Positions 31,334 through 51,532 of a DNA stretch of 64,000 bases are shown here, piece by piece. Source of the stretch: Chrysopilus asiliformis (lineage: Eukaryota > Arthropoda > Insecta > Diptera > Rhagionidae). The stretch's first letter is position 1, and the number at the start of each line of letters is the position of its first letter. Under the pieces are notes generated by a model that was given only the letters and a program-made list of their open reading frames with translations, did no database searches and had not been told where the DNA came from. A program made the translations under genes and the position numbers. Where the stretch lies: the NCBI GenBank assembly GCA_964034945.1, contig OZ035962.1, forward strand, positions 95,852,284 to 95,916,283. Direction: 5' to 3'.

Positions 31334-32437
31334 TTAGCCTATCCTTTTAGTTGTGGTCTTTCTAGTGGTCGTTTTAGGTTTAGTGGTGGTTTTCTTAGTT
31401 GTAGTGATTTTTCTAGTCGTTTTAGTAGTCTTTCTAGCCGTTGTGGTTACCTTCTTTTTTGTGGTGGTTCTAGTAGCTGCACTAGTCACTGATACTTTGG
31501 CAGTCGTGGTAGTTGTAACTACGGGTGCTATGGTACTTTTAGAAGTAGACGTGGTGGTAGTTTTTGCAGCAACCGTTGTTTTAGAAGCAGATGTGGTGGT
31601 AGGTTTGGGAGCGGGCGTAGTTTCAGAACTAGATGTGGTGATAGTTTCGGAAGCGGACGTAGTTACAGCACCAGATGTAGTGGTAGTTTTGGGGGCGGAT
31701 GTAGTTTGAGAAGCAGTTGTGGTGGTAGTGTCGGGAGCTGGCGTAGTTTTGGGAGCGGGTGTAGTTTCAGCACCAGATATGGTGGTAGTTTTGGGAGCGG
31801 GCGTAGTTTCAGAACTAGATGTAGTAATAGTTTCGGAAGCGGACGTAGTTACAGCAGCAGATGTGGTAGTAGTTTCGGGAGCGGGCGTAGTTATAGCAGC
31901 AGATGTGGTAGTAGTTTCGGGAGCGGGCTTAGTTACAGCACCAGATGCGGTGGTAGTTTCTGGGGCAGATGTTGGGTTTTGTGTTGTAGTGACCGGTTCC
32001 GGAATAACTGAAATTTCATCCGTTTTATTTTCTGTGTTTTCTTCCGCGTTTTCTTCTCCATTGTCTTCTGTGTCCCCTTCATCACTCTCTTCGGAGCCTT
32101 CTTCCGCGTTTTCTTCTCCATTGTCTTCTGTGTCCCCTTCATCACTCTCTTCGGAGCCTTCTTCCGCGTTTTCTTCACCGGTATCTTCTGCATTTTCGTC
32201 GTCTGGATCGCCTTCTTCTGTGTATTCCTCGGAATATTCTTCTGAATCCTCATCTGGATATTCTTCTGAATCCTCATCTGGATATTCTTCTGAATCCTCA
32301 TCTGGATATTCTTCTGACTCCTCATCTGTATATTCTTCTGAGGATTCTTCTTCTGCGGCACGTCGACGTCGCACATTTGCGCCATTTGTCGTTAAGAAAA
32401 TCGCCAAAACGGTTACAAAAATTACAAGGAATCTCAT
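31334..32437 (-). CDS. Secreted low-complexity protein 1 (acidic/Thr/basic), 367 aa
   Basis: A single coding exon. Residues 1-19 form a signal peptide (MRFLVIFVTVLAIFLTTNG), followed by ANV and the convertase-like RRRR at 23-26. Residues about 27-145 are acidic with four EEYPDEDS-type octads and a perfect 20-residue tandem duplication (60 bp at 32041-32100 and 32101-32160). Then come a Thr/Ser/Pro/Ala-rich region (ETTTTS, TTPAPK units) of about 160 residues and a basic KTTTKK tail ending KRIG. There are no cysteines. Ser-x-Glu and acidic-Tyr contexts suggest secretory-pathway phosphorylation or sulfation, and the Thr block O-glycosylation; these are inferences. The start is fixed by the signal peptide. 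An extracellular mucin, silk or glue component is likely; no homologue is recognised. Confidence 0.88.
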   Translation of the reverse strand: MRFLVIFVTVLAIFLTTNGANVRRRRAAEEESSEEYTDEESEEYPDEDSEEYPDEDSEEYPDEDSEEYSEEYTEEGDPDDENAEDTGEENAEEGSEESDEGDTEDNGEENAEEGSEESDEGDTEDNGEENAEENTENKTDEISVIPEPVTTTQNPTSAPETTTASGAVTKPAPETTTTSAAITTPAPETTTTSAAVTTSASETITTSSSETTPAPKTTTISGAETTPAPKTTPAPDTTTTTASQTTSAPKTTTTSGAVTTSASETITTSSSETTPAPKPTTTSASKTTVAAKTTTTSTSKSTIAPVVTTTTTAKVSVTSAATRTTTKKKVTTTARKTTKTTRKITTTKKTTTKPKTTTRKTTTKRIG

Positions 32438-32453
32438 TGTTATGGATTATTTC

Positions 32454-32576
32454 CTATAATTAATTTTAAAAAAATCGTATAAAATAATTACGAACTCAGA
32501 TTTGTTATTCCTTGAAACAAGTTTTAACCAATATCAACAAAAAACAATAAAAAGGAGTAAACTTATTACAAATCAC
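32454..32576 (-). other. 5'-UTR intron of gene 1 (123 nt)
   Basis: Donor AGTAG|GTGATT and acceptor 'attaattatag' leave a 16-nt leader before the ATG. Donor position relative to the TATA box (61 nt) matches the other four paralogues (60-61 nt). Confidence 0.65.
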
Positions 32577-32630
32577 CTACTTTCTGGGAAGTGATGCCGC
32601 AGTTTGTGGATTAGTTTATCTTTCTTTAGA

Positions 32631-32637
32631 ATTTATA
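32631..32637 (-). promoter_or_regulatory. TATA box of gene 1
   Basis: TATAAAT on the gene strand. Transcription start expected near 32607, giving a leader exon of about 31 nt. Confidence 0.65.
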
Positions 32638-32769
32638 CTAAAATGGATATTTTTTTTGTACTCTTTAAACAATTATAAGCAGTTTGTCTTTAATTGCCAA
32701 TAATATTGACAAAATTTAAATTAGAGTACTAAACAAATATTAAAACAGTTGTTTATTTCACTAATTTCA

Positions 32770-32777
32770 TTGACGCA
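32770..32777 (-). promoter_or_regulatory. TTGACGCA upstream element of gene 1
   Basis: This octamer (TGCGTCAA on the gene strand) lies 133 bp upstream of the TATA box and recurs 155-159 bp upstream of the TATA boxes of the other four paralogues. A second shared block 'aatattgacaaa...gagtactaaa' is at 32702-32733, matched upstream of gene 3. Confidence 0.55.
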
Positions 32778-32970
32778 ATCCCAAATGTTCGTTGGATGTG
32801 GCATATTATTATTGATTTGACAATTGTTTAAAAAAATACCAGTGCCAAGATTAAATTGAGGAATACCCTATATGATGCAAAGGGGGTTCTCTTTTGAAAT
32901 TTCAATAAAAAAAATTATATACTTCTTTTCTGCCAAAAATGTTGTGAAATCAACTTATGCGACGGTTGCT

Positions 32971-33146
32971 TTGTGACTGGTCACAATGAAGCCGCTTTCA
33001 TATAGGTTACCTTGTAACCGGTCACAAAAAAAACCTTTCAAATGGGTTATTTTGTGCTCGGTGGCAAACAAAAAAACCAGTTGCTAATTAGTTACATTGT
33101 AACCGGTTACAAATTAACCGTTGCAAATCGGTTACTTTGTGCCTGA
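32971..33146. repeat. Tandem repeat of about 40 bp with palindromic AACCGGTT-like cores
   Basis: Five units begin at 32971, 33012, 33051, 33097 and 33137 with 'ttgtaaccggttacaa', 'ttgtaaccggtcacaa', 'ttgtgactggtcacaa' and more diverged cores. The core resembles the insect Grainyhead site AACCGGTT. It lies upstream of gene 1, between the gene 1 promoter and a hAT element. Confidence 0.65.
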
Positions 33147-33267
33147 CAGGGAAGTTATCGTTGTTTTTCGTTGTATTTTTATATCGTACTCGTTTATAAT
33201 TCACTTACAAACAGTGGCATCGAAATATAAATAGTTAACTTCGGACCAAAGAAATCATACTTACAAT

Positions 33268-34274
33268 CAGGGTTCCCACCCCAAAAGTGAAAAGCGGAGT
33301 GTTACTGATCGAAAAATAGTAGTGTCAGAGGGATTTCAGTAGTGTCAACTTTTTAACAGTCATTTAGAGTTTTATTGAGACAACACATTTTGTGTGTTAC
33401 CGTCTAATGTTTTATTTCATATCATATCAGTACATTTTTATACCCGTATGGTGAAACCAAAGGGTATATTAGATTTGACTTACCGTTTGTAACGCCAACA
33501 TCCCGTTATCACACACAAAAATGAATTACACCAGTGTGTTTAGAATGATAAAAAAAAATTGAATTTTGCATGTCCGTCCGACCGTCTGTGGCGCGGATTG
33601 CGGGCGCACAGATTGAGCTAGAAACTTGAAATTTTGCGCAGATCCGTTTTTCGTAAAATGCGAGGCTAAGTTCGTTAATGGGCAAAAATGGACTATTAGG
33701 GCGGGTACCCCACCCACCATACGAACGAAAACGTTTTTTCTAAATATCGCAAAAACGGTGCATCTCATCAAAAAAGTGCAAGAACTTGTTAAATCATTTT
33801 AATTTTCATTTAAAGAAAACAGAGTCTCATTTAAAGAAAACTGAGCCCAATTTTTCTCATTTAAAGAAAACTCAGTGTTATTGAAAAATAATTAAAATGA
33901 TTTAACAAAGTTTTCATTGCTCTTCTGGAAAATTATACCAAATGGACTTAGCACAATTTCACTTTTAGCCGACAATATGTCTCTTTTGTTCAAGAATTGA
34001 GTGCGTTTAGTCAGTCACTTTTTCATAGGAAATGCCTAAAGTACCTACTTAAATATTTTAGATAAAGAGTCTGAATGATTACATATTACATATTTTTTAA
34101 TTTTCTCAATATAAATGAAATTTTCAAATCTAGAAATTAACTTTCTTTGTAGCACGTTTTTTATATGGCGAAAAAGGTAGTGTTTTGGGTTTTTCAGTAG
34201 TGTAAATAGTGTTAGGTCAAATTATGTCGAAATAGTAGTGTAAAACTACGATAGTAGTGTAAACGGGATCCCTG
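33268..34274. mobile_element. hAT-type element with nested R2 copy
   Basis: The ends are CAGGGTTCCC and GGGATCCCTG, flanked by perfect 8-bp duplications CTTACAAT (33260-33267, 34275-34282), diagnostic of hAT. Inside are repeats of 'agtagtgt' near both ends, three 'tctcatttaaagaaaact' units near 33810-33875, and an inverted R2 copy (33431-33800). No transposase remains. Confidence 0.88.
33431..33800 (-). mobile_element. R2 dispersed repeat, copy b, inside the hAT element
   Basis: Reverse orientation: starts 'tatacccgtatggtgaaacc', carries 'cacaccagtgtg'-like sequence and a short GTCC tract without microsatellite expansion. The 81-codon minus frame here is repeat sequence. Confidence 0.65.
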
Positions 34275-34503
34275 CTTACAATGCTTACTGATGTATACTT
34301 GGAATATAAGTTTTCATTCATGTCACATATAATCTGCCTACCCTCCCCCCCTTCCCAAAAAAAACTGGGCAAAAATGGTTTCTTAAATGTTGCAGCAACG
34401 TTTTTGTGACGTTGTAGCAATCAATGTATAAACCAATATATAGAATTGTTTTAATAAATGCAGTTCCCGTATAAAATTAAAACCAAATTTAGAGGATAAC
34501 TTA

Positions 34504-34509
34504 TTTATT
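34504..34509 (-). terminator. Poly(A) signal of secreted gene 2
   Basis: AATAAA on the gene strand, about 40 nt past the stop, inside a 3' flank (34444-34560) homologous to those of genes 4 and 5. Confidence 0.6.
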
Positions 34510-34547
34510 TACCATTTTAAAAATTATTCTTTGACTTCAATTAATTC

Positions 34548-35195
34548 TTAACCTGGCCTCCTTCGAGTAGTCCTTTTTGGTGTTGGCTTTCTCTTAGTTG
34601 TCACCTTCCTAGTTGTCCTCTTCTTAGTAGTCCTCTTCTTAGTAGTTCTTTTTTTAGTAGTTAATTTCTTTGTGGTTATCTTCTTTTTTGTAGTTTCAGG
34701 AGCGGAAGTTGTTGCAGTTTTTTCTTCCTCTTTTTTAGCTGCCTCTTCAGCTGCCTTTTCTTCTTCCGCTGCCTTTTCTTCGGCTGCCTTTTCTTCTTCA
34801 GCTGCCTTTTCTTCGGCTGCCTTTTCTTCTTCTTCGGCTGCCTTTTCTTCTTCAGCTGCCTTTTCTTCGGCTGCTTTTTCTTCTTCAGCTGCCTTTTCTT
34901 CGGCTGCCTTTTCTTCTTCTTCGGCTGCCTTTTCTTCTTCAGCTGCCTTTTCTTCGGCTGCCTTTTCTTCTTCAGCTGCCTTTTCTTCGGCTGCCTTTTC
35001 TTCTTCAGCTGCCTTTTCTTCGGCTGCCTTTTCTTCTTCAGCTGCTTTTTCTTCGGCTGCTTTTTCTGCGGCTGCCGCTTCTGCGGCTGCCTTTTCTTCG
35101 GCGGTTGTCGTATCTTCTCGACGACTTCTCACATTGGCTCCGCAAGTCATCGAGGAAAATGCCAAAAAAGTTAGAAAAATTACAAAGTATTTCAT
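34548..35195 (-). CDS. Secreted hendecad-repeat protein 2, 215 aa
   Basis: The signal peptide (residues 1-19, ending MTCG) is followed by ANV, then RSRR at 23-26, a canonical furin-type site. Residues about 30-155 are repeats of [11 protein letters not shown], an 11-residue period that would form a continuous amphipathic helix; the period recalls group 3 LEA proteins, but those are not built like this and I do not claim homology. The tail (about 160-215) is basic with TTKKR units and ends RRRPG. The only cysteine is in the signal peptide. It is the shortest of the family; its 3' and 5' flanks match genes 4 and 5, so these three are one subfamily. Function unknown; extracellular structural or adhesive role inferred. 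Confidence 0.87.
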   Translation of the reverse strand: MKYFVIFLTFLAFSSMTCGANVRSRREDTTTAEEKAAAEAAAAEKAAEEKAAEEEKAAEEKAAEEEKAAEEKAAEEEKAAEEKAAEEEKAAEEEEKAAEEKAAEEEKAAEEKAAEEEKAAEEEEKAAEEKAAEEEKAAEEKAAEEEKAAEEAAKKEEEKTATTSAPETTKKKITTKKLTTKKRTTKKRTTKKRTTRKVTTKRKPTPKRTTRRRPG

Positions 35196-35216
35196 TGTAA
35201 CAGTCGCTTCCTTTAG

Positions 35217-35292
35217 CTACAAAAAAAAAAAAAAATTTTATCAAAACTCGCAGATGTTTTAAAAGTTTTTTAAGACAAATGTTGCTTTATAC
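35217..35292 (-). other. 5'-UTR intron of gene 2 (76 nt)
   Basis: Donor GAAG|GTATAA and acceptor in a long T run (tttttttgtag). Leaves 21 nt before the ATG. Confidence 0.65.
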
Positions 35293-35344
35293 CTTCTTTT
35301 AACAAAGTGAAGTTAAACTTACTCTAGAATATATTTTTTACGCG

Positions 35345-35352
35345 TATTTATA
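35345..35352 (-). promoter_or_regulatory. TATA box of gene 2
   Basis: TATAAATA in the context ggTATAAATAcgcg, identical in genes 4 and 5. The leader exon is about 30 nt. Confidence 0.7.
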
Positions 35353-35507
35353 CCAAAATTACTAATATTTAGACAACTAATTCTATTGACTTATTCAAAA
35401 GCTGTCTTCGGTTTCAAATAACATTCATTTAAATTCAATGAAATTAAACTCGTTACAGTTTATACAATTGTTGAAAACGTTTTTATTTGCGAAACATAGC
35501 AATTTCT

Positions 35508-35515
35508 TTGACGCA
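35508..35515 (-). promoter_or_regulatory. TTGACGCA upstream element of gene 2
   Basis: Lies 156 bp upstream of the TATA box, followed by 'cttccaaaaatatg' as in genes 4 and 5. Confidence 0.55.
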
Positions 35516-35559
35516 CTTCCAAAAATATGATATAAATATTGCGTATTAAAAAAAAATAT

Positions 35560-36095
35560 TTTGTAACTTTGAACGTCTTAGAGAGGGTCTTGTGCGGTAT
35601 TTATCGTAATTAGAACGTCAAAGCAATTTTTACTTCCTCTCAGCGTTGCTAAGAATGAAAGAATGGTATTCATGACGGTAACTGATTCGAGAACGGGAAC
35701 TGACAGAAACTTTCTGATCAGCACGATATCCGATTCAGACAAAATTAATTGGATGTCTATCGGTTTGTGGGTCTGTCGGTCTTTCCGTTTTACGTATCTC
35801 AAATAACTCGCTAGCTACTTAAAAATTTTTGTCGATGGGTTTTACAAAAATCGTAGTTCTCTGTCAACTTTTGGAAAAGTAACGTTAACGGGTACCAACT
35901 ATGGGTCTTTGATAAAAATGCACACGGTCAAATTTAAAGAAAATAAAATTTCCTACATTTTATTTCTTCTTCAACGGCTTTGTTATCTCTAACAGTTTCT
36001 AGTAATTTCGAAAAAAGTTTTTTTTTATATATTTTTTCCGAAAATTTTAAATATTGCAGAGGAAAGTTTTGTGTTGATCATAATTGATATTTTTT
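35560..36095 (+). mobile_element. R3-family repeat copy
   Basis: Contains 'gtctgtcggtctttccgttt', 'ctcaaataactcgct', 'atcaacttt'-type core in reverse, and the R3 right end 'ggaaagttttgtgttgatca'. No microsatellite expansion in this copy. Confidence 0.5.
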
Positions 36096-36164
36096 AATGA
36101 CATCTATTACAAAAACATAAAAATTTTCAAAACCGTTGAATTTGGTAAAAAAAAATTATGAATA

Positions 36165-36483
36165 AAAAAAACACTTTAAAAAGCAAGTTTTATAACCTTA
36201 TACACTTTCAAAATGCACTAAAAAGTAAAAAAACAAGTTTAAAGTTTCACAAAAAATGTTTTTATAAATTGCGTGTTGTAGTGAAAATATAAAGTGTGCT
36301 GCTTTGCACAGTATGAAACCGCTATTACAGATTCAAGAGCAAATGCAACGTCACACACTTTATATTTTCACAACAACACGCAATTTATAAAAACATTTTT
36401 TGTGAAACTTTAAACTTGTTTTTTTTACTTTTTAGTGCATTTTGAAAGTGTATAAGGTTATAAAACTTGTTTTTTAAAGTGTT
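36165..36483. repeat. Large palindrome (about 120-bp arms)
   Basis: The left arm from about 36171 to 36290 ('aacactttaaaaagcaag...caatttataaa' region) is matched in reverse complement by about 36360-36482 with few mismatches, around a spacer of about 70 bp. It lies directly beside the R3 copy and may be a foldback element. Confidence 0.75.
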
Positions 36484-36559
36484 CTTTTTTTATTATTTTA
36501 TACTTTTTAGTCTTGAATTAGCCTACCAAAAACCTCCAGAAAAGATCTTTCGCGGGAAA

Positions 36560-36975
36560 TTTGAGCAAAAGGAAACTCACGTTATCTTTGCAGGACATTC
36601 CGTTATCATTACAGAATTTTAAATATCAGAGTCGGAGTCAGCGACCCCGAAAACCCCCTAATGCCATTTTTCCCCGGGAACGACGGGAAAAGGATATTTA
36701 CGTCATGTTTGCAGGACCTTCCGTTTTGAATTTTGAAAATCTAACACCGGATTCGTGATCAGCGACCCCGAAAACCCCCTGATGCCAGTTTTTCCCGGGA
36801 AAGACGGGAAAAGGATATTTACGTCATCCTTACTGGACCTTCCGTTTCTAATTTCGAAAATCTAACACCGAATTCGTGATCAGCGACCCCGAAAACCCCC
36901 TAATGCAATTTTTTCCCGGAAAAAATGGGAAAAAGGATATTTGTGTTATTCTTACAGGAGATTCCATTATCTGTA
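36560..36975. repeat. Tandem repeat with about 120-bp period, three-plus units
   Basis: 'gcgaccccgaaaaccccct' recurs at 36641, 36762 and 36882, each followed by a 'cccgggaa' motif, 'aaaaggatattt' and 'ggaccttccgtt'. A related single unit, inverted, lies at about 60470-60560 in the duplicated right end. Non-coding. Confidence 0.85.
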
Positions 36976-37296
36976 CAAGCATGGAGTAGTAAAAATATTG
37001 AACTGTTACCGGAACTACGCAAGGTGACAAAATTTCATCTTCCTAGATTGCATAGTTTTGGAGATATAAGGTTCCAAAAATTCCAGAGATAGACACATAG
37101 CCAGCCAGGTAGCCAGGTCGCGACAAATCAACTTAATAGAAAGTGTATAAAAAAAGCGATTATGTTTACTGTAATTATGTAAATAATTACTCTTAGCGTT
37201 GTAGATTACGAATTTTGCTGAGATAACTATTATAGATTTTTATTGCAAATTAAATGTAAAGTGACAACTACAATTGCCAGGAAGAATTGTAAGATA

Positions 37297-37402
37297 CAGC
37301 CGAACCTGGATAAGTGGGACCTGAGGAAATGGGAAACCTCTATAACTGCGGGAAACTTAGGGTAAGTGGTCCCGTAAGTTGCCCCTTATCCAAGTTCGAC
37401 TG
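37297..37402. mobile_element. Small TA-flanked MITE (106 bp)
   Basis: The ends are CAGCCGAACCTGGATAAG and an imperfect complement, flanked by TA on both sides. This CAGTCGAACCT-type terminus is common in insect Tc1/mariner MITEs. Confidence 0.75.
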
Positions 37403-37404
37403 TA

Positions 37405-39637
37405 CTCTATTTTGAAAATTTCAGACAGAATTTTCATAGAAATTTTTCAAATTCTATGAGAAAGGGGAAGTGCCCCAACAAACATTTCGTGCCTTGATGT
37501 GACCACCTTCGATTTTCAAAACAAAAACGTTGTCTCGGCGTCATTGCGCAGGAATTGTTCCCAACATTTGCCTCTGACGGCACATTTCCCATTTGGGAAA
37601 AGTTAAAGGAATAGTGACTAAATTGTTACCACAAAAGTTCCCACGCGGGCAAAGTGGAAATGCGGGCACAGTTGTGCCTCGGCGGGAATTTTTTATTGTC
37701 ACACAATCGTCGCTGTTACGTTTCAGTACCAGGCAATTGTAAGGAATAACTGTCAATTTTTATTTTATGTCATTCAGTTTCTTGTTCTTGTAAAATATGG
37801 AAAAACAATTTGAAATGCTCAGAGAGAATAGCAAAAGTGTGGGAAATAGAAAGCGTCCATAATATTTCTCTAACTGCAAGGCTTCCATAAAATCTTGTGC
37901 AAAACATTTCACCTTGCATTGCATTTTTACCCAGTTTTTTCAGAAGTAGAGGAAAAATTCTTTCTAATTCTGTCGATTTGCAATTTCGTCATATGTTTTG
38001 GCCAAAAAAGGAAGGAGTTTTGTTCTCTATTGGACGGTACTGCAGTATAGTTCCATTCTCGCCAGTTTCTACTACTTTTTCAAGATAAATTAACTTCACA
38101 AAGATTTCAATTGAACTGTCAATTCACCCACGAAAAATGTGTGTGTGGCACAAATACTTGCGCAAATCAACAAATATCGTACTACTAGAATCCATTTGCT
38201 ATCTCCTCAAACGACAAAAAGTTCTAAAGAAAATAAGGGACAAAGCTAATAATCTCTGGGAAATTTAAATTCTGGAAAAAAGTGCTTATGCAGGTCCCCG
38301 ACGGAATATTATTCAATTCCTATACCGATTATTCATATTAATATTCAGAGCTGCCACATACAATAATATGCAATTCCCTAAAAAATGCTTGCAACCTGTT
38401 ATAAGTCTTATGAGTTCGACGTAAAACATATAAGTCAAGTGTTATATTCAGAAATGATTCGAACATCTGACTTCACTAAAGTCGGCCATTTCATATTACG
38501 TATTCACAGTCACTTACAAAATGGCAAAGTAAAAACTAAATCTGAAAATTTTCAAGGCGAATGGGGAAAACAGTTCTGTAACTGAAATATCTGATTTGTG
38601 ATGTAAATTAAAGAATGTGTCGTCCAGAGCCACCAATTGAACATGTAAAAATTGCTGGGGAACCTAAAAGCGAGGGCGACAAAAATTCAAATTTCCTTTT
38701 AATGTCTGAATTACCAAAATAACTACAATGAAAGTTAAAGTTTAGACAATTTTTATTTTCTTTATCTATTGTAAAACACTATCAAAAAATCGTTAGTTTT
38801 CGAAATAATGTAAAAAAAGGTTTTTGGAGTTTTAGTGAAAAACCAATTCTGGCAAATTTCAATATCTTTAACTTCCATTACATATTTTCGGAGAAAATTG
38901 CGAAAAATAGCATTTCGATTTTTAAAATCCGGTATATTTTTTGCCAAAAGTAGATATAATCGTCCGGAAATTAAAATTCAAAATGCCACAAAATATTTCT
39001 ATTTAATAAAAGTTAAGCTGTTTTTCAGAGGTGCTCGGGAAATGTGTTCTGGGCAAAATAACAAGGTCAACCATTTCTATGAATACAATATTTACAACGC
39101 ACTACGTATTCGGCATTGCATCCAAGCAAGTGTTAAAATAAATATATATGCTGTATGTGCCCCGCGAGCCTCTAAATTTTGATTGGAAAGCAATTTCACT
39201 TCAAAACTTACTGCAACGTGACCACAACAGTTTTTAATTTCTGAGCGATGGTAATTTTAGTTGCCACCGTATTTCACTTTTAAATATGGCGGTGATTTTG
39301 TTAAACGATTTGCGAGTTTTGTAAATCTAATTAAAGGCTTTTTAAATACTATTTCATGAACCTGATTAGGAAAAAATCAGTTTTTGGAATAATATCTTTT
39401 CTTAGAAATTAGTTTGAATCGTTTTTTGTTAAAGTTTTTATGCCCATTTTTTCAGATTTTCATGAAAAATTTCCCTTTTTTTGCAAAATTATGAGGAGGA
39501 GTAATTTTTTTAGGAAGTAACACAAGCACTTTCATCGAAAAATTTCATTCGTTTGGAGTCTTTGATCTGAAAAATCGTCCAAATGCCATTATTTAATTTG
39601 ATTCAGATTGGCATTCATAAAATATGTCTTCCATTAT
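37405..39637. other. Intergenic, no gene recognised
   Basis: AT-rich except 37480-37760. Frames at 37541-37756 (minus) and 38835-39182 (plus) lack recognisable features and have no supporting signals. Confidence 0.45.
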
Positions 39638-39641
39638 TTAA

Positions 39642-41363: not shown

Positions 41364-42851
41364 TTAGCCTGGCCTCCTTTTAGTAGTCTTTTTTACGGTG
41401 GTCCTCACGGTAGTCCTCGTTGTTGGTATTTTAGTAGTTTTCTTAGTCGTTTTTACAGTGGGCTTTTGAGTGATTTTCTTAGTCGTTTTTACAGTGGGCT
41501 TTTTAGTGGTTTTCTTAGTCGTTTTTACAGTGGGCTTTTGAGTGATTTTCTTAGTCGTTTTTACAGTGGGCTTTTGAGTGATTTTCTTAGTTGTTTTTAC
41601 AGTGGGCTTTTTAGTGGTTTTCTTAGTCGTTTTTAAAGTGGGCTTTTTAGTGGTTTTCTTAGTTGTTTTCCTGGTAGTAATTTTCTTTTTGGTGGTTCTT
41701 TTAGTGGCTATAGTCGTTTTTGGCCGTTTTGTTGTTGAAGTAACTGGTTTCTCTGTCTCATCCTCGATTTCCTCATCTGTATATTCTTCTGGATCTTCTT
41801 CCGTTTCCTCATCTGTATATTCTTCTGGATCTTCTTCTGTTTCTTCATCTGTATATTCTTCTGGGTCTTCTTCTGTCTGCTCTTCTGTGTTTCCTTCTCC
41901 GTTTTCTTCTGCGCCTTCTTCTGCGCCTTCTTCTGCGCCTTCTTCTGCGTCTTCTTCTGCGTTCCCTTCAGTGTCTTCTTCTGCGTTCTCTTCCGCGTCT
42001 TCCTCTACGTTCTCTTCCGCGCCTTCTTCTGCGTTCTCTTCCGCGCCTTCTTCTGCGCCTTCTTCTGCGCCTTCTTCTGCGCCTTCTTCTGCGCCTTCTT
42101 CTGCGCCTTCTTCTGCGTCTTCTTCTGCGTTCCCTTCAGTGTCTTCTTCTGCGTTCTCTTCCGCGTCTTCCTCTGCGTTCTCTTCCGCGCTTTCTTCTGC
42201 GCCTTCTTCTGCGCCTTCTTCTGCGCCTTCTTCTGCGTCTTCTTCTGCGTTCCCTTCAGTATCTTCTTCTGCGTTCTCTTCTGCGTCTTCCTCTGCGTTC
42301 TCTTCTGCGCCTTCTTCTGCGTTCCCTTCAGTGTCTTCTTCTGCGTTCTCTTCCGCGTCTTCCTCTGCGTTCTCTTCCGCGCCTTCTTCTGCGCCTTCTT
42401 CTGCGCCTTCTTCTGCGCCTTCTTCTGCGCCTTCTTCTGCGCCTTCTTCTGCGTCTTCTTCTGCGTTCCCTTCAGTATCTTCTTCTGCGTTCTCTTCTGC
42501 GTCTTCCTCTGCGTTCTCTTCTGCGCCTTCTTCTGCGTCTTCTTCTGCGTTCCCTTCAGTGTCTTCTTCTGCGTTCTCTTCCGCGTCTTCTTCTGCGTTC
42601 TCTTCCGCGCCTTCTTCTGCGCCTTCTTCTGCGCCTTCTTCTGCGCCTTCTTCTGCGCCTTCTTCTGCGTCTTCTTCTGCCTGCTCTTCTTCTCCGTTAT
42701 CTTCCATATTTTCTTCGGGATTTTCTTCCCCCTGCTCTTCAGATCCCTCCTCAGTTTTCACTGCTGCTGAATCACCACGGTGACGCCGCACATTTGCTCC
42801 GAATGTGCCCGAAATCACAAGAGCCGTTATAAAAATCGTAAGGAACCGCAT
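41364..42851 (-). CDS. Secreted acidic/basic diblock protein 3, 495 aa
   Basis: A signal peptide (1-18, ending GTFG) is followed by ANV and RRHR at 22-25. Residues about 26-367 are almost entirely Glu, Ala, Gly, Asn and Asp, as four-residue units (AEEG, AEEN, AEED) in higher-order blocks such as AEENAEEDTEGNAEED, ending with three EDPEEYTDEETE units. Residues about 368-495 are basic, built from a 12-residue unit (KTTKKITQKPTV, 36 bp), ending TTKRRPG. There are no cysteines. Net charge therefore switches sharply from strongly negative to strongly positive. It shares promoter layout and an acidic EEY motif with gene 1. It is inferred to be a structural or adhesive secretion; no homologue is recognised. 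The long plus-strand frame over it is a repeat shadow. Confidence 0.88.
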   Translation of the reverse strand: MRFLTIFITALVISGTFGANVRRHRGDSAAVKTEEGSEEQGEENPEENMEDNGEEEQAEEDAEEGAEEGAEEGAEEGAEEGAEENAEEDAEENAEEDTEGNAEEDAEEGAEENAEEDAEENAEEDTEGNAEEDAEEGAEEGAEEGAEEGAEEGAEEGAEENAEEDAEENAEEDTEGNAEEGAEENAEEDAEENAEEDTEGNAEEDAEEGAEEGAEEGAEESAEENAEEDAEENAEEDTEGNAEEDAEEGAEEGAEEGAEEGAEEGAEEGAEENAEEGAEENVEEDAEENAEEDTEGNAEEDAEEGAEEGAEEGAEENGEGNTEEQTEEDPEEYTDEETEEDPEEYTDEETEEDPEEYTDEEIEDETEKPVTSTTKRPKTTIATKRTTKKKITTRKTTKKTTKKPTLKTTKKTTKKPTVKTTKKITQKPTVKTTKKITQKPTVKTTKKTTKKPTVKTTKKITQKPTVKTTKKTTKIPTTRTTVRTTVKKTTKRRPG

Positions 42852-42976: not shown

Positions 42977-43030
42977 CTACTTTCAAGAAACTATAATGGA
43001 AACTTAAGTAGAATAATATTTTCTCATGGT

Positions 43031-43037
43031 TTTTATA
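43031..43037 (-). promoter_or_regulatory. TATA box of gene 3
   Basis: TATAAAA on the gene strand, 61 nt before the leader donor site. Confidence 0.65.
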
Positions 43038-43195
43038 CCAAAAAACTAGATTATAATTGTTGTTATTCGAAGTTAGTATTCAATTGTCAACAATATTGAC
43101 AAATATTAAACTTGAATACTAAAAAGTGTACACAAATGTTAAAATTGAAATATGGTATTTTTTACTATTTCTTATTAACATTTGCCGCTTTTTTT

Positions 43196-43203
43196 TTGAC
43201 GCA
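43196..43203 (-). promoter_or_regulatory. TTGACGCA upstream element of gene 3
   Basis: 159 bp upstream of the TATA box. A second block shared with gene 1, 'caatattgacaaa...gaatactaaa', is at 43091-43121. Confidence 0.5.
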
Positions 43204-44106: not shown

Positions 44107-44928
44107 AGGGCCCTCTCCACGAGATACATGTATTACATACATCGGTGTTTGCGCAAGCCAATTTGATGATGGATGGGCAAGTATTCTTGTTTACGCATGT
44201 ATGTATGACAAAATCAAAATGATGAATGATCTTACCGCATACATGAATTCTCATGGATGGCGATGTTTGCGCATACATAGCGTGGTTAGTACGTTGCAGA
44301 CTGCCGACAAGATGACAACCTCGATCGGGAGTAATGTATTTTGTCGCGAGTTTTTGGCATTATATAGAGATTTGCCGGAATTATGGAAAGTGAAAAGCGA
44401 AGCATATAAAAAAATCATTTAATAATGCTGCATACGAAAAATTAGTGGAAAAATTCAACGAAATTGAATCGAACGTAGATCGGGAAATGGTCCGCAGAAA
44501 ATAAATAACATTCGCTGCAGCTACAGGCGGGAGCTGAAAAAAGTGGGAACATGCAAAAAAGCCGGAGCAAGTGTTAATGACATTTAAACGCCTTCCCTAT
44601 GGTATTACGATCTTCTCGATTTTTTGCGTTTCTCGATTTTTTGAGCGATGTGAAAATCGCTGTCGTTTTGCCAAGCAATTTTTTTTACCCAGTTTTCGTT
44701 TTTTTTTATTTATTTTTTAGGGCCTTGTAGGCATTCTAAAATTATTGCGATCGCTAAAGTAATGTCACTCATTTTTAAATTTAGTGTCAGTGTTTTGAAA
44801 ATTACAAAATATTACGGGAAACGCAACATACTCAATGATGGCTTTTGACAAACTAATGTATGCATGCACAAATTGGAATGCGCAAACAAACAATGTAATG
44901 TATACATGTATCTCGTGGATGGGGCCCT
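44107..44928 (+). mobile_element. PIF/Harbinger element remnant with MADF gene relic
   Basis: Terminal arms AGGGCCCTCTCCACGAGATA onward and the imperfect complement, flanked by TAA on both sides (44104-44106, 44929-44931). Inside, 44340-44585 encodes a MADF/Myb-SANT-like domain relic. PIF/Harbinger elements are known to carry such a DNA-binding protein next to the transposase. No transposase frame remains here. Confidence 0.8.
44340..44585 (+). pseudogene. MADF (Myb/SANT-like) domain pseudogene
   Basis: Begins with REFLALYRDLPELWKVKSEA, the typical first helix of MADF domains with its conserved Leu-Tyr and Leu-Trp positions. It continues after a frameshift near 44418 with AAYEKLVEKFNEIE and, after a second near 44502, with SYRRELKKV, the typical MADF third helix. 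Two frame disruptions and an in-frame stop show it is dead. In the family this domain binds DNA and, in Harbinger elements, helps the transposase. Confidence 0.75.
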
Positions 44929-45027
44929 TAAATAAGCTTGAATCTTTAAAGTTGATTTGCTTAAAACTAAGAAATTGGTGTATGGCACAAATGCGAAATC
45001 AAGTGACGAAATGTCGAAATTACATTA

Positions 45028-45549
45028 ATGGCGTTTTCGACTGGCATGCTCTTTTTGCTCTGAAGTTGCTCTAAATTTGCTCACTCTGAGATCTTGTGTT
45101 CGACTGAGATTTTTTGATCGCTCGAAAAAGAGTTACGTGTTCGAGTGACGCAAGTACTCCGTATGCGAGCACTAAAAGAGCATTTTTCGAGCAATTTTGT
45201 GATCTGCCTAATGTAGTCAGATTTGAGTTGCTCTTTTGAGGTTAAGGCTAACAAAATCGTGTGGAATCGTAAATGGAAGATATTTATGATTTTGATTTCT
45301 TGGATTCTTCTTCATCTAGTGAAGAAGAATTTCATTTGGTCAGAAATATATTAGTGCAGTGTCAACTTAAGGGGAATATATCAAAATTAATTTTAATTTG
45401 TTTTATGCTTCTTCTTGTTCTTTGAGAAATGCTCGACTCCCAAGCAGAGGTGCTCGAAATCTACTCGAGATCTGCTCGAAATACCTTGCTCTAAACTGGG
45501 GTAGAGCGTGCTCTGAATCTGCCCTGAATCTGCCAGTCGAAAACGTCAT
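45028..45549. mobile_element. Second Harbinger-like element remnant
   Basis: The termini ATGGCGTTTTCGACTGGCA and its complement (one mismatch) bound a region with many 'gctcgaaa' and 'tgctctga' motifs. A short frame starts at the ATG near 45272 (MEDIYDFDFLDSSSSSEEEF), which resembles acidic N termini seen in Harbinger transposases, then degenerates. Target duplication is not clean, so class assignment is tentative. Confidence 0.5.
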
Positions 45550-46372
45550 AAATTTTACACTTTTGAATGTGGTAATACGGATAAATCAAAGTAAATTGCG
45601 GAAAAAAAAACTTGTGCATTTTAGCGTGTAATACAGTATGTCATCAAAATATGGTTAGCACTGAATGTAGTAAGATGAATAAAATCTACGATTTTCACTT
45701 AATTTTCAAACTAAACTGATGAATGGCAGTATGCACATTTACTTGCTTCCTTGGAAATGATGTAAAACTTTGAGTGGCGAGCTATTTGGGCATTTATACT
45801 AGAAGGGAAATTTTTTGTGGTGTATAGAGGATATCTGTCTGGTGATCTGATGATGATCAACCAACAATCCCCCGTTCTTTTATACGCAGAGCAAAAAAAA
45901 AATGTAAATCTAACTATTTTATAATGAAGAATCATGACTATTACTAAAAAAGTTAATTTTAAGTCAATTTAACTACAAAATATTAAATTTTAATTTAAGA
46001 ACAAAATAGTAAATTTTTTTAAAGTTAAATTAATCATAAAAATATCCAATTTTGACTATTTTGTAATCGAAACTATCTCTTTTAGTAATAGTCACGAATA
46101 GTTAGATTTACTATTTATTCTCTGCGTTTACATTTTCGCCGCAGTAAACCGTTCAATCTTTAACTAATTTTTCTCCGCCCTCTGTTCGACCTTTTCTATA
46201 TCTGTGCCTGTGTCCTTTCCTTCTCTTACCTTATCTCTTTCTCTCTGTCTTACTCTCTCTTCATCTATTTCTAACTATCTCTTTCCTTCTCTCTAGCTCT
46301 CTACTTTTCATTGATTTTCGACAATCTAATTCCATGTAGATAATGTCAACGTGTAAATAGTTGACGTTGATC
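45550..46372. other. Intergenic, 3' side of gene 4
   Basis: Contains the inverted-repeat element at 45885-46126 and a CT-rich tract at about 46190-46310. No gene recognised. Confidence 0.45.
45885..46126. mobile_element. Inverted-repeat element (242 bp)
   Basis: Imperfect arms of about 70 bp: CGCAGAG, 'gtaaatctaactatt' and 'gactattactaaaa' at the left, the complements at the right. No coding content and no clear target duplication. Confidence 0.65.
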
Positions 46373-46553
46373 GATTTCTTTGTTTGACAATGTGAACTAT
46401 GCATTAGCCATGATATTGCCTTGTAAAACTTACTGTCGAAAGAGCAGAAAAAATCCCATAACCTTTAAAATAAGCATACACGACAACTTCCCGAATTGTT
46501 TTTATAAACGCAGTTCCCGTATAAAGTTAAAACACAATTTTGAAGGTAACTTA

Positions 46554-46559
46554 TTTATT
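46554..46559 (-). terminator. Poly(A) signal of secreted gene 4
   Basis: AATAAA on the gene strand, about 40 nt past the stop, in the conserved 3' flank shared with genes 2 and 5. Confidence 0.6.
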
Positions 46560-46597
46560 TACCATTTTAAAAATTAATCTTTGACTTCAATTAATTC

Positions 46598-48139
46598 TTA
46601 ACCTGGTCTCCTTCGAGTAGTCCTTTTTGGTGTTGGCTTTCTCTTAGTTGTCCTCTTCTTAGTAGTCCTCTTCTTAGTAGTCTTCTTAGTAGTCTTCTTA
46701 GTAGTCCTCTTCTTAGTAGTCTTCTTAGTAGTTTTCTTAGTAGTCCTCTTCTTAGTAGTTGTTTTTTTAGTAGTTAATTTCTTTGTGGTTATCGCCTTTT
46801 TTGTAGTGGCCTTAGTAGTTTTGGGAGCGGATGTTGTTCCAGTTTTTTCTTCCTCTTTTTTGGCTGCCTCTTCGGCTGCCTTTTCTTCTTGAGCTGCCTT
46901 TTCTTCGGCTGCCTTTTCTTCTTGAGCTGCCTTTTCTTCGGCTGCCTTTTCTTCTTGAGCTGCATTTTCTTCGGCTGCCTTTTCTTCGGCCGCCTTTTCT
47001 TCTTGAGCTGCCTTTTCTTCGGCTGCCTTTTCTTCTTGGGCTGCCTTTTCTTCGGCTGCCTTTTCTTCTTGAGCTGCCTTTTCTTCGGCTGCCTTTTCTG
47101 CGGCTGCCTCTTCTGCGGCTGCCTTTTCTTCGGCTGCCTTTTCTTCTTGAGCTGCCTTTTCTTCAGCTGCCTTTTCTTCTTGAGCTGCCTTTTCTTCGGC
47201 TGCCTTTCCTTCTTCAGTTGCCTTTTCTTCGGCTGCCTTTTCTTCGGTTGCCTTTTCTTCTTGAGCTGTCTTTTCTTGGGCTGCCTTTTCTTCTTGAGCT
47301 GCCTTTTCTTCGGCTGCCTTTTCTGCTTGAGCTGCCTTTTCTTCGGCTGCCTTTTCTTCCTGAGCTGCCTTTTCTTCGGCTGCCTTTTCTTCTTGAGCTG
47401 CCTTTTCTTCGGCTGCCTTTTCTTCTTGAGCTGCCTTTTCCTCGGCTGCCTTTTCTTCTTGAGCTGCCTTTTCTTCGGCTGCCTTTTCTGCGGCTGCCTC
47501 TTCTGCGGCTGCCTTTTCTTCTGCTGCCTTTTCTTCTTGAACTGCCTTTTCTTCGGCTGCCTTTTCTTCTTGAGCTGCCTTTTCTTCGGCTGCCTTTTCT
47601 GCGGCTGCCTCTTCTGCGGCTGCCTTTTCTTCGGTTGCCTTTTCTTCTTGAGCTGCCTTTTCTTCGGCTGCCTTTTCTGCGGCTGCCTCTTCTGCGGCTG
47701 CCTTTTCTTCGGCTGCCTTTTCTTCTTGGGCTGCCTTTTCTTCGGCTGCCTTTTCTGCGGCTGCCTCTTCTTCAGCTGCCTTTTCTTCTGCTGCCTTTTC
47801 TTCTTCAGCTGCCTTTTCTTCGGCTGCCTTTTCTGCGGCTGCCTCTTCTTCAGCTGCCTTTTTTTCGGCTTCCTTTTCTTCTTCAGCTGCCTTTTCTTCG
47901 GCTGCCTTTTCTTCTTCAGCTGCCTTTTCTTCGGCTGCCTTTTCTTCTTCAGCTGCCTTTTCTTCGGCTGCCTTTTCTTCTTCAGCTGCCTTTTCTTCAG
48001 CTGCCTTTTCTTCTTCGGCTGCCTTTTCTTCGGCTGCCTTTTCTTCGGTTGTCGTATCTTCTCGACGACTTCGCACGTTGGCCCCGTAAGTCACCGAGGA
48101 AAATACCAAAAAAGTTAGGAAAATTACAAAGTGTCTCAT
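46598..48139 (-). CDS. Secreted hendecad-repeat protein 4, 513 aa
   Basis: A signal peptide (1-19, ending VTYG), ANV, then RSRR at 23-26. Residues about 30-430 are 11-residue repeats, [11 protein letters not shown] near the N terminus and mainly [11 protein letters not shown] (Gln variant) further on, with occasional [10 protein letters not shown] inserts. The tail (about 435-513) is TTKK/TTKKR-rich and ends RRRPG. No cysteine. It is the longest hendecad member; the 33-bp DNA repeat explains its length difference from gene 5 (338 aa) and gene 2 (215 aa). A continuous helical rod with a basic tail is expected. The plus-strand frames of about 400 codons are shadows of the repeat. Confidence 0.88.
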
Positions 48140-48160
48140 TATAACAGTCGCTTTCTTCAG

Positions 48161-48224
48161 CTAAAAAACAAATAAAATTTTTATTAAAAATAGCAACTTT
48201 TTTAAGGCAAATGTTACTTTATAC
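48161..48224 (-). other. 5'-UTR intron of gene 4 (64 nt)
   Basis: Donor GAAG|GTATAA and acceptor 'tgttttttag', leaving 21 nt before the ATG. Confidence 0.65.
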
Positions 48225-48276
48225 CTTCTTTTCACAAAGTGAAGTTAAACTTACTCAGAAATATATTTTTTACGCG

Positions 48277-48284
48277 TATTTATA
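48277..48284 (-). promoter_or_regulatory. TATA box of gene 4
   Basis: TATAAATAcgcg, as in genes 2 and 5, 60 nt before the leader donor. Confidence 0.7.
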
Positions 48285-48438
48285 CAAAATTTCTAATATT
48301 TAGACAACTAATTTTATTGACTTATTGAAAAATTATTTTCGGTTGCCAATAACATTCATTTAAATTCAATGAATATAATCCCGTAAAAGTTTATACAATT
48401 GTTGAAAACGTTTTTATTTGCGAAATATACCAATTGCA

Positions 48439-48446
48439 TTGACGCA
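48439..48446 (-). promoter_or_regulatory. TTGACGCA upstream element of gene 4
   Basis: 155 bp upstream of the TATA box, in the block 'gcattgacgcaattccaaa' shared with gene 5. Confidence 0.55.
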
Positions 48447-48525
48447 ATTCCAAAAATATGGTATAAATATTGCGCGTTCGATCATAAGTACTAATGGTAA
48501 GTTATTCCAAGTTTTCAAATTTTTA

Positions 48526-49720
48526 CTTTCTTCTACGGAGTATAATAAAGTATTGTATTCATGAAAAATTTCGACCTCTTAATTTTGCCTAAAAAACATT
48601 TCCCGATCACTCCTGAGTCGATTGGAGTCATATTTAAAAAATGTCTTTCTGTCTGTCAGTCTGTCAGTCTGTCAGTCTGTCAGTCTGTCAGTCTGTCAGT
48701 CTGTCAGTCTGTCAGTCTGTCAGTCTGTCAGTCTGTCAGTCTGTCAGTCTGTCAGTCTGTCAGTCTGTCAGTCTGTCAGTCTGTCAGTCTGTCAGTCTGT
48801 CAGTCTGTCAGTCTGTCAGTCTGTCAGTCTGTCAGTCTGTCAGTCTGTCAGTCTGTCAGTCTGTCAGTCTGTCAGTCTGTCAGTCTGTCAGTCTGTCAGT
48901 CTGTCAGTCTGTCAGTCTGTCAGTCTGTCAGTCTGTCTGTCAGTCTGTCAGTCTGTCTGTCAGTCTGTCAGTCTGTCAGTCTGTGTACAAGATTTCTCAA
49001 AAACTAATAGAGCTAGCGCCATGAAATTTTATAGGCATGTTGGGTCCTGATATGGGACGATCTTATCAACTTTTGGTGGAAATCCGTTAACCGGAAGTAT
49101 CCAAAATGGCGGTTTTTCAAAAATCGCAATTTCGTTTTTCTCGATTTACTCCCAAACTACGCGTTTTTTAGTGGCCTTAAGTATGACAAAACTTGGAGAA
49201 AATATAATTTCCCACATTTTTGTCTTTAACTATAACTCGATATCTCCACCTGTTATCGAGATAAACCGTTATTTCCAAAAAAAAAGAGTTTTTTGCGATT
49301 ATCTCGAAAATTAACGGGTTTTTGCTAACTGAAAATATGAAGTGAATTAATGAGAATGGCATTCTGCACAATTTTGTCTTTTACCGTTATCCGTTATCTT
49401 TTACCGTTATTGAGATATTTTTATTAATATGTAAAAAATCATATTTTTGCAAATAATTTGCAAACTAACGGTTTTTCGACAAATTTGTTAAAAGAATAAT
49501 TAAAGACGTTAACATTTTCTACATTTTTGCCATTTACCGTAAATTGATATCTTTTACCGTTCTCAAGTTATCTCAAATTTAGTACATTTTTGATATTTTT
49601 GAATACACCAAGAATTTATTGGGAGGTCATCTTAGGTTGACAACGCGACAGGGCTCTAGCGTAAATTGCGCAGGGTCGTAGATTTTGTAGAAGAAAGTTT
49701 TGTGTTGACCACAACTGATA
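48526..49720 (+). mobile_element. R3 element, complete copy defined by an empty site
   Basis: Compared with the paralogous unit 2 (about 51927), this 1,195-bp insert lies between TTTA repeats (48522-48525, 49721-49724). It starts CTTTCTTCTACGG and ends 'gttgaccacaactgata'. Near the right end 'gtagaagaaagt' complements the left terminus. It carries the 48648-48984 octamer array and no coding region. Fragments at 0.4, 9.5, 20.8, 25.2, 35.6, 43.7 and 56.3 kb belong to the same family. Confidence 0.8.
48648..48984. repeat. Octanucleotide array (AGTCTGTC)n
   Basis: About 42 near-perfect 8-bp units, with two local losses of one half-unit near 48935 and 48955. All frames are open, producing long SVCQSVSL-type translations that are not proteins. 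Confidence 0.95.
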
Positions 49721-50471
49721 TTTATATTTCTATACGAATTATATCACTAGCATTGCGGTTTCAATTTTTTATTTGAATACTTTTTATTTTTAAGTGAAAT
49801 TATTTTTTTCAATAATAATATGACAAATGGACACTGATAACAATTTTTAAGACAAACTTCAAAATTTCGATTTTGCCTAATTTGTAAATTTAATAACTCA
49901 CTATTTAGTCACAGGAAAGTCGAATGATCGATAAACACGAAATAAACACAAAAAGAATTCAAATCGAATGATCAATAAACACAAAACTCAAACGTAATTT
50001 TATCGAAAAATTGTGTGCTTCTTTAAAAATATATTAAATTTATATTAAATGCATTTAATGGGCGATATTTTGTCCGAATCTTTTTGTTATTTTTTGTTAT
50101 TTTATGTCTTAAAAGAAAGAAATTTTCTAAGGTCCTCTTCTGCATGTGAAATTTTATGTTATGTTATTGCTTATAACATAAAATTTTTCTGTAAGAACAT
50201 AAATGAACCTCGGTAGGTTATTTTATAGACATCTATAATAAAAATGAATCGTGGTCAGTGGTGCGACTATCCATAACTCGGCTGAATATAATCCGATTTG
50301 TTTGATATTGTGAACTATGCCTTAGCCATGATATTGCCTTGTAAAACTTACTGTCGAAAGAGCAGAAAAAATCCCATAACCTTTAAAATAAGCATACACG
50401 ACAACTTCTCGAACTGTTTTTATAAACGCAGTTCCCGTATAAAGTTAAAACACAATTTTGAAGGTAACTTA

Positions 50472-50477
50472 TTTATT
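50472..50477 (-). terminator. Poly(A) signal of secreted gene 5
   Basis: AATAAA on the gene strand, about 40 nt past the stop. Confidence 0.6.
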
Positions 50478-50515
50478 TACCATTTTAAAAATTAATCTTT
50501 GACTTCAAATAATTC

Positions 50516-51532
50516 TTAACCTGGCCTCCTTCGAGTAGTCCTTTTTGGTGGTGGCTTTCTTTTAGTTGTCCTCCTCTTAGTAGTCTTCTTAGTCCTCTTC
50601 TTAGTAGTCCTCTTCTTAGTAGTCTTCTTAGTAGTCCTCTTCTTAGTAGTCCTTTTCTTAGTAGTCTTCTTAGTAGTCTTCTTAGTAGTTCTCTTCTTAG
50701 TAGTCCTCTTAGTAGTTCTTTTTTTAGTAGTTAATTTCTTTGTGGTTATCGCCTTTTTTGTAGTGGCCTTAGTAGTTTTGGGAGCGGATGTTGTTCCAGT
50801 TTCTTCTTCCTCTTTTTTAGCTGCCTCTTCGGCTGCCTTTTCTTCTTGAGCTGCCTTTTCTTCGGCTGCCTTTTCTTCTGCGGCTGCCTTTTCTTCGGCT
50901 GCCTTTTCTTCTGCGGCTGCCTTTTCTTCGGCTGCCTTTTCTTCTTCAGCTGCCTTTTCTTCGGCTGCCTTTTCTTCTTCTTCGGCTGCCTTTTCTTCTT
51001 CAGCTGCCTTTTCTTCGGCTGCCTTTTCTTCTTCAGCTGCCTTTTCTTCGGCTGCCTTTTCTTCTTCAGCTGCCTTTTCTTCGGCTGCCTTTTCTTCTTC
51101 AGCTGCCTTTTCTTCGGCTGCCTTTTCTTCTTCAGCTGCCTTTTCTTCGGCTGCCTTTTCTTCTTCAGCTGCCTTTTCTTCGGCTGCCTTTTCTTCTTCA
51201 GCTGCCTTTTCTTCGGCTGCCTTTTCTTCTTCAGCTGCCTTTTCTTCGGCTGCCTTTTCTTCTTCAGCTGCCTTTTCTTCGGCTGCCTTTGCTTCTTCAG
51301 CTGCCTTTGCTTCTTCAGCTGCCTTTGCTTCTTCAGCTGCCTTTGCTTCTTCAGCTGCCTTTGCTTCTTCAGCTGCCTTTGCTTCTTCAGCTGCCTTTGC
51401 TTCTTCAGCTGCCTTTGCTTCTTCAGCTGCCTTTTCTTCGGTTGTCGTATCTTCTCGACGACTTCGCACGTTGGCTCCGTAAGTCACCGAGGAAAATACC
51501 AGAAAAGTTAGGAAAATTACAAAGTACCTCAT
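50516..51532 (-). CDS. Secreted hendecad-repeat protein 5, 338 aa
   Basis: A signal peptide (1-19, ending VTYG), ANV and RSRR at 23-26, identical to gene 4 over the first 30 residues except one position. The repeat block starts with eight AAEEAK hexads (18-bp DNA repeat) and continues with [11 protein letters not shown] hendecads to about residue 230. The tail (about 247-338) is TTKKR-rich, ending RRRPG. No cysteine. It is a tandem duplicate of gene 4 with conserved promoter, leader intron and 3' flank, and differs mainly in repeat number and type. Confidence 0.88.
   Translation of the reverse strand: MRYFVIFLTFLVFSSVTYGANVRSRREDTTTEEKAAEEAKAAEEAKAAEEAKAAEEAKAAEEAKAAEEAKAAEEAKAAEEAKAAEEKAAEEEKAAEEKAAEEEKAAEEKAAEEEKAAEEKAAEEEKAAEEKAAEEEKAAEEKAAEEEKAAEEKAAEEEKAAEEKAAEEEKAAEEKAAEEEKAAEEEEKAAEEKAAEEEKAAEEKAAAEEKAAEEKAAAEEKAAEEKAAQEEKAAEEAAKKEEEETGTTSAPKTTKATTKKAITTKKLTTKKRTTKRTTKKRTTKKTTKKTTKKRTTKKRTTKKTTKKRTTKKRTKKTTKRRTTKRKPPPKRTTRRRPG

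Follow-up and report, generated by a model that had tools for sequence, protein, structure and literature searches.

Which proteins are encoded by the five repetitive open reading frames (ORFs) on the minus strand of one stretch of chromosome 3 of the snipe fly Chrysopilus asiliformis (Rhagionidae), and what might they form? The stretch, here called the window, comprises 64,000 bases (C3:95852284-95916283), and the five ORFs, A-E, lie within its positions 31334-51532. Among 7999 matches to the ND5 of this genome, the 120 listed all belong to flies, with Symphoromyia crassicornis (Rhagionidae) nearest at 85% and Heterostomus curvipalpis equal to it at 85% across a shorter part of the query. An ND5 tree of 34 rows did not resolve the family of the fly, and a sciarid fungus gnat (DNA puffs) was rejected as the source in view of ND5 and the assembly statistics. 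A first-pass annotation of this DNA had described five minus-strand genes whose products share a leader, an ANVR-x-x-R motif, a repeat block and no mature cysteines, and this description is borne out by ORFs A-E. Judged from sequence, our best reading is that these genes belong to a lineage-restricted secreted structural polymer made up of at least eight cysteine-free repetitive proteins in C. asiliformis, and comparison of the loci at the sequence level has shown that the family keeps its ends while it exchanges its central repeat block.

Five genes with a common plan

The five genes, with coordinates counted from the first ATG, are as follows:

31334..32437, minus strand: gene A, 367 residues; leader, ANVRRRR, acidic block (Glu/Asp/Ser/Tyr), long Thr/Ser/Pro stretch, basic end, KRIG
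34548..35195, minus strand: gene B, 215 residues; leader, ANVRSRR, Ala-Glu-Lys block, Thr-Lys tail, RRRPG
41364..42851, minus strand: gene C, 495 residues; leader, ANVRRHR, (x-A-E-E)n acidic block, Thr-Lys-Pro tail, KRRPG
46598..48139, minus strand: gene D, 513 residues; leader, ANVRSRR, Ala-Glu-Lys/Gln block, Thr-Lys tail, RRRPG
50516..51532, minus strand: gene E, 338 residues; leader, ANVRSRR, Ala-Glu-Lys block, Thr-Lys tail, RRRPG

Each protein opens with a hydrophobic leader, which in A-E spans 18-19 residues with Gly at its end. Hydropathy and alignment give such a signal-peptide-like leader ending in Gly in all eight members that we describe here (A-H; F, G and H lie outside the window), and an R-x-x-R motif, a C-terminal Gly and the complete absence of mature Cys are each likewise found in 8/8. 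Beyond the leader A-E contain neither Cys nor Trp, and aromatic residues there number six in A, three in C and none in B, D and E. The repeat blocks of B, D and E have a dominant tandem period of 33 bases, equal to 11 residues. Each chain divides into three parts:

32360..32437, minus strand: leader and ANVRRRR of A, 26 codons
35118..35195, minus strand: leader and ANVRSRR of B
42777..42851, minus strand: leader and ANVRRHR of C, 25 codons
48062..48139, minus strand: leader and ANVRSRR of D
51455..51532, minus strand: leader and ANVRSRR of E
32030..32359, minus strand: acidic block of A, 110 residues, 0.56 acidic, 0 basic
34689..35117, minus strand: mixed-charge block of B, 143 residues, 0.42 acidic, 0.16 basic
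41751..42776, minus strand: acidic block of C, 342 residues, 0.55 acidic, 0 basic
46823..48061, minus strand: mixed-charge block of D, 413 residues, 0.37 acidic, 0.17 basic
50780..51454, minus strand: mixed-charge block of E, 225 residues, 0.41 acidic, 0.17 basic
31337..32029, minus strand: C-terminal part of A, 231 residues, Thr 0.39, basic 0.12, acidic 0.05, strongly basic only at its end
34551..34688, minus strand: basic tail of B, 46 residues, 0.52 basic, 0 acidic
41367..41750, minus strand: basic tail of C, 128 residues, 0.38 basic, 0 acidic
46601..46822, minus strand: basic tail of D, 74 residues, 0.49 basic, 0 acidic
50519..50779, minus strand: basic tail of E, 87 residues, 0.52 basic, 0 acidic

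Alternative frames are also open through the repeats of A-E, and for this reason ORF length alone is no proof that these are genes. The N-termini of the five match one another (tblastn, E 2e-4 to 4e-26), and the DNA of B, D and E is pairwise 86.7%, 88.0% and 92.9% identical over 442, 442 and 518 bases, of which only about 95 are coding and the remainder lie upstream of the ATG. A and C have a 61-base upstream stretch in common (79%). When A-F are aligned, their TATA boxes share a column, 145-200 bases upstream of the ATG; these boxes are consensus matches and thus putative, and since 264 kb of sequence contains the looser string GTATAAAW 82 times, such a box on its own means little. Between box and start codon, B, D and E carry a donor-like AAGAAG/GTA and, 21 bases upstream of the ATG, an acceptor TAG, which suggests an intron of 64-76 bases in their 5' untranslated region (5'UTR); A, C and F have weaker counterparts of these signals, all of them found by eye. 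The promoter features are:

32632..32637, minus strand: putative TATA box of A, 200 bases upstream of the ATG
35347..35352, minus strand: putative TATA box of B, 157 bases upstream of the ATG
43032..43037, minus strand: putative TATA box of C, 186 bases upstream of the ATG
48279..48284, minus strand: putative TATA box of D, 145 bases upstream of the ATG
51684..51689, minus strand: putative TATA box of E, 157 bases upstream of the ATG
35217..35292, minus strand: probable 5'UTR intron of B, 76 bases, from splice-site consensus by eye
48161..48224, minus strand: probable 5'UTR intron of D, 64 bases, from splice-site consensus by eye
51554..51629, minus strand: probable 5'UTR intron of E, 76 bases, from splice-site consensus by eye

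Downstream, an AATAAA signal follows every stop codon in A-E. Over the N-terminal 25-26 codons, a value was obtained for 14 pairs of A-F, and in 12 of them non-synonymous divergence (dN) was below synonymous divergence (dS); the pair C-D gave no dS. Within the blocks the picture is less even: third codon positions are the most variable between repeat copies in B, D, C and the 20-residue repeat of A, third and second positions are nearly tied in E, and in the Thr stretch of A the third is not the highest. Non-synonymous pairs of copies outnumber synonymous ones in most tests, and the blocks give no clean coding signal. It is the shared putative TATA promoter, the probable 5'UTR intron and the paralogous N-termini, taken together, that mark A-E as real genes. 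Rfam and tRNA scans of the window found nothing.

Constant ends and an exchangeable middle

The genome was searched with 37-residue N-termini as queries at E up to 10, in an assembly of 429,065,045 bases and 42 contigs; the genome note, in the part available, gives a span of 429.05 Mb, with chromosomes of 117.0, 116.07, 114.8 and 68.48 Mb, a mitochondrion of 16.38 kb and 41 other scaffolds, and lists a whole-organism RNA run, ERR13093633 (PMC12371324). Query A returned five matches, C five, F six and E eight, and their union amounts to eight loci, A-H, all on chromosome 3 and all (8/8) open without an inner stop. Several of these matches are weak (E 0.03-0.6), yet all of them fall in open frames that show the complete plan, and the count of eight is a lower bound. 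With the promoter region of E as a DNA query against the genome, only B, D and E were recovered.

The sixth member, F, lies 88.5 kb beyond the window end on the opposite strand, within the 100 kb flanks examined on each side, and consists of a leader, ANVRRIR, (PADKPEDK)n, a Thr/Ala/Ser/Pro hinge, a Lys-Pro-Thr tail and KRRPG. G and H, at about 101.489 Mb and 101.485 Mb of chromosome 3, are only 4.5 kb apart, and an alignment of 391 bases upstream of them shows 94.4% identity, such that by sequence the two share a promoter. Their hinges are identical in 46/46 residues, and the hinge of F is one residue off from each. The blocks between these common parts are built from different units: G has 39 copies of AAADK and 16 of AAEDK and no PADKPEDK, with one PADK left at the end of its block, while PADKPEDK occurs 27 times in H and 40 times in F, neither of which has AAADK. 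Because G and H share promoter and hinge but differ in their repeat unit, and because A and C have acidic blocks where B, D and E have Ala-Glu-Lys ones, we read the family as one of constant ends and an exchangeable middle, with promoter and leader common to members spread over 5.6 Mb.

The first-pass annotation had further held that every chain keeps its negative and its positive charge in separate blocks and ends in a basic Thr-Lys tail, and here our results agree only in part. A purely acidic middle block is found only in A and C; the middle blocks of B, D and E combine 0.37-0.42 acidic with 0.16-0.17 basic residues, and those of F, G and H 0.25-0.34 acidic with 0.18-0.23 basic. In a test of local segregation at the 5-residue scale, with 1000 shuffles of each of A-F, the observed value was reached by no shuffle of A or C, by 46 of E, 146 of B, 983 of D and 1000 of F; in D and F, in other words, the charges are better mixed than in most shuffles. 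The acid-base diblock was rejected as the common principle on these grounds: outside A and C every block is 0.16-0.23 basic, and the chains D and F show the mixing just described. At the scale of the whole chain, the asymmetry of charge between block and tail exceeded 200/200 shuffles in all eight members. The C-terminal part has no acidic residue and is 0.38-0.53 basic in 7/8 members, the exception being A, whose C-terminal 231 residues are mainly Thr/Ser/Pro and strongly basic in the last ~50 only; Thr makes up 0.22-0.41 of this part across all eight. Segregation of charge thus holds for A and C, and for all five chains as whole-chain asymmetry, and is not borne out at the local scale in B, D and E; the basic tail holds for B-E (0.38-0.52 basic) and in A, at 0.12 basic for the whole C-terminal part, is confined to those last residues. 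What is constant across the family is the basic C-terminal end together with the two termini.

A proposed secreted polymer and the readings that compete with it

That no described family was recognised at first pass agrees with our searches, since no homology survived control in Pfam or in one N-terminal search. Pfam matches of all eight members were considered down to E 0.1, and at this level A, B, C and E have none, and the LEA_4 model (LEA group 3, 11-residue helical repeats) matches none of the eight. Homology to an intracellular family might be seen in HC2 (PF07382, a histone H1-like nucleoprotein), which D approaches at 18.5 bits, below cut-off, and which G passes at 102.7 bits against a cut-off of 40, the match falling in its Ala/Lys block. 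Reversed, this block still scores 76.6 bits, above cut-off, and shuffled it gives no match; we therefore attribute the score to an ordered simple repeat and not to descent, and reject HC2 homology for G. F and H, whose ends are the same as those of G, have no HC2 match. G also falls below cut-off with Extensin_1. The Pfam PT disordered repeat (PF04886) matches the F tail at 78.9 bits (cut-off 26.2) and H at 23.6 bits, just under it; this is a generic repeat model, to which none of the remaining six members has a match at E 0.1.

Beyond Pfam, the first 42 residues of E, a short query for a database of 5.8 billion proteins, gave 11 candidates, none with E <= 0.1, and a scan of IMG/VR viral contigs with the N-terminal alignment gave 26 stretches that fit the pattern, with no relative among them. 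The absence of relatives elsewhere, which rests on this short-query search and the viral-contig scan, is not established. Among A, E and H, the three searched against PDB sequences, E had one match (cytochrome c1), A none and H four, the best of which, OCM3, was rejected as an alignment of mainly recurring Pro. The open-licence literature, in the parts available (including PMC12371324, PMC6352337, PMC9409817, PMC9880899 and PMC4280546), holds no description of these proteins. In AlphaFold2 models the E block forms a long helix (predicted local distance difference test, pLDDT, up to 93, mean 72.2) with the tail near 50, C has no confident fold (mean pLDDT 41.4), and neither model is globular.

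We regard bulk extracellular material, be it glue, silk, cement, coat or mucus, as the likeliest role of A-H, and hold this with about even confidence. On this account the chain would enter the secretory pathway by way of its leader and would probably be trimmed at the conserved R-x-x-R. Motifs of this kind suit furin-type proteases, and a terminal Gly can give an amide. The trimmed product would be a long hydrophilic chain, composed of an exchangeable repeat block and of the basic Thr/Lys/Pro-rich end that every member has kept. Blocks of Ala-Glu-Lys or AAADK are likely helical, those of PADKPEDK likely disordered and those of x-A-E-E polyanionic, and the block may set length, stiffness and hydration. 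As the basic end is the constant element, it is supposed to tie chains to each other or to anionic partners (the A and C blocks, anionic glycans or surfaces) without disulphides, with the block governing bulk properties. Assembly, tissue, stage and role are all points that we infer here from sequence.

Several observations weigh against this interpretation. Acid-base diblocks are confined to A and C, and ionic self-assembly within one chain is consequently not a family trait; dN was not below dS in the N-terminal codons of the pairs D-F and E-F; and the models of E and C were made from single sequences. Neither silk nor pupal glue is known to us from snipe flies, and the open-licence literature on Rhagionidae and silk, at the level of its listing, records no such material. 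A more specific version, in which an unrecorded snipe-fly bioadhesive or silk has a fixed leader, pro-site and polycationic end, a central polymer swapped like a cassette, and a disulphide-free, ionic assembly tuned by mixing members, is possible but doubtful. Were the material glue or silk, it would be a cysteine-free example in a fly lineage without such material in the literature listing searched. With its constant ends and exchanged centre, the family lends itself to asking where in a secreted chain stiffness is determined and where binding, and G and H, so close together and with near-identical promoters and hinges but unlike repeats, are a ready pair for this question.

The nearest comparison is with the salivary glue proteins of Drosophila, whose genes are highly expressed in the late larval salivary gland. 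In the excerpts consulted (PMC6352337, PMC9409817) these proteins have a leader, fast-turning internal repeats and cysteines. According to the same excerpts, a phase 1 intron splits the signal peptide in five of the eight D. melanogaster glue genes (Sgs1, Sgs3, Sgs7, Sgs8 and Eig71Ee), and repeats are present in Sgs1, Sgs3, Sgs4 and Eig71Ee and absent from Sgs5, Sgs7 and Sgs8 (PMC6352337, PMC9409817). As far as these partial sources go, the likeness lies in the leader, in internal repeats that change fast in number and sequence, in repeats containing Thr/Lys/Pro (KPTTT in Sgs3) and in linked paralogues (Sgs3/7/8). However, the Drosophila glue proteins described there contain cysteines or are rich in them, whereas none of the 8/8 snipe-fly members has a mature Cys, and in A-E the frame runs unbroken through the leader with no sign of an intron there, the likely intron lying upstream of the ATG. 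The blocks seem to differ too, being long and acidic or of mixed charge in the snipe fly and Pro/Ser/Thr repeats in Sgs; a Pro/Ser/Thr-rich stretch occurs in A and Thr-rich ends in all members, and the main blocks are rich in Glu/Ala/Lys/Asp. Lacking cysteines and any sign of a leader intron, the family is not the Drosophila Sgs family, and by analogy it may work like glue without being composed of Sgs proteins.

Insect coiled-coil silks, for example those of the honeybee, are Ala-rich, charged, helical secreted chains encoded by clustered genes. The predicted helix of the E block resembles them, but the dominant repeat of B, D and E has a period of 33 bases or 11 residues, where a heptad would have 21 bases, the snipe-fly chains have a strong basic tail, and other members do not look helical. 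In complex-coacervate adhesives such as that of the sandcastle worm, acidic and basic proteins are separate. The snipe-fly family similarly offers polyanionic segments (A and C) and polycationic ones (the tails), but each chain carries both charges, most blocks are mixed, and there is no sign of phosphoserine or DOPA.

A reproductive secretion is the first rival to a structural material, and one that we think unlikely. Proteins of the male accessory gland (mating plug) or of the female accessory gland or egg coat also evolve by repeat turnover and duplication, and leader, repeats and paralogues would be equally expected of them, the sequence naming no gland; nothing in it points positively to reproductive tissue, however. 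Quite unlikely, in our view, is a mucin-like role in which the proteins line the gut, peritrophic matrix or cuticle and bear O-glycans on their Thr-rich ends. The Thr content of the C-terminal part (8/8 members) and the long Thr/Ser/Pro stretch of A are what such a lining would have, but none of the eight members has a chitin-binding, VWD or other mucin-associated Pfam domain at E 0.1, and the tails are far more basic than the classical mucin repeat.

That the proteins are precursors in the regulated secretory pathway, cleaved at R-x-x-R, with the block neutralising the basic end and the product a cationic antimicrobial, salivary or venom peptide, possibly C-terminally amidated, we consider very unlikely. 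The R-x-x-R motif and C-terminal Gly in 8/8 and the negative block and positive end in all members accord with it, but no conserved cleavage site was seen between block and tail, the tails are long simple Thr/Lys repeats, and at up to 413 residues the blocks would make a large neutralising pro-region. That simple tandem DNA is open here by accident and has no function is highly improbable: the repeats have long open stretches in other frames too and the window holds many other tandem arrays, but 8/8 loci lack an inner stop, blocks that are quite unlike in their DNA lead into the same ends, and promoter and leader are shared over 5.6 Mb.

Surroundings of the genes

A direct repeat of 348 bases (49810-50157 and 52017-52364, 99.1% identity) flanks gene E on both sides, a possible sign of a recent duplication or element there. 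Arrays of 8-base microsatellites, ~42 copies each, lie at 48643-48984 (GTCTGTCA), just upstream of D, and at 56688-57026 (GACAGACC), and a 46-base tandem repeat (13.9 copies, 97% matches) lies to the left of A at 29115-29751. An inverted repeat of ~1 kb at 54801-55946 has arms that are 86.8% identical. Two direct-repeat copies of a mariner-type transposase frame of 273 residues, whose best named relative is a spider DD41D transposase (52%), are found at 60898-61719 and from 63519 to 64337, beyond the window end. Further out, frames resembling immunoglobulin-domain exons lie 61.7-62.6 kb before the window start, and a retrotransposon-like frame of 1829 residues lies 9.5-15 kb beyond the window end (73.5-79.0 kb when counted from position 1), both recognised by eye. 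Elsewhere in the genome, nuclear chromosomes C2, C3 and C4 (L015-L017) contain fragments matching a mitochondrial proton-channel family, which are probably mitochondrial insertions.

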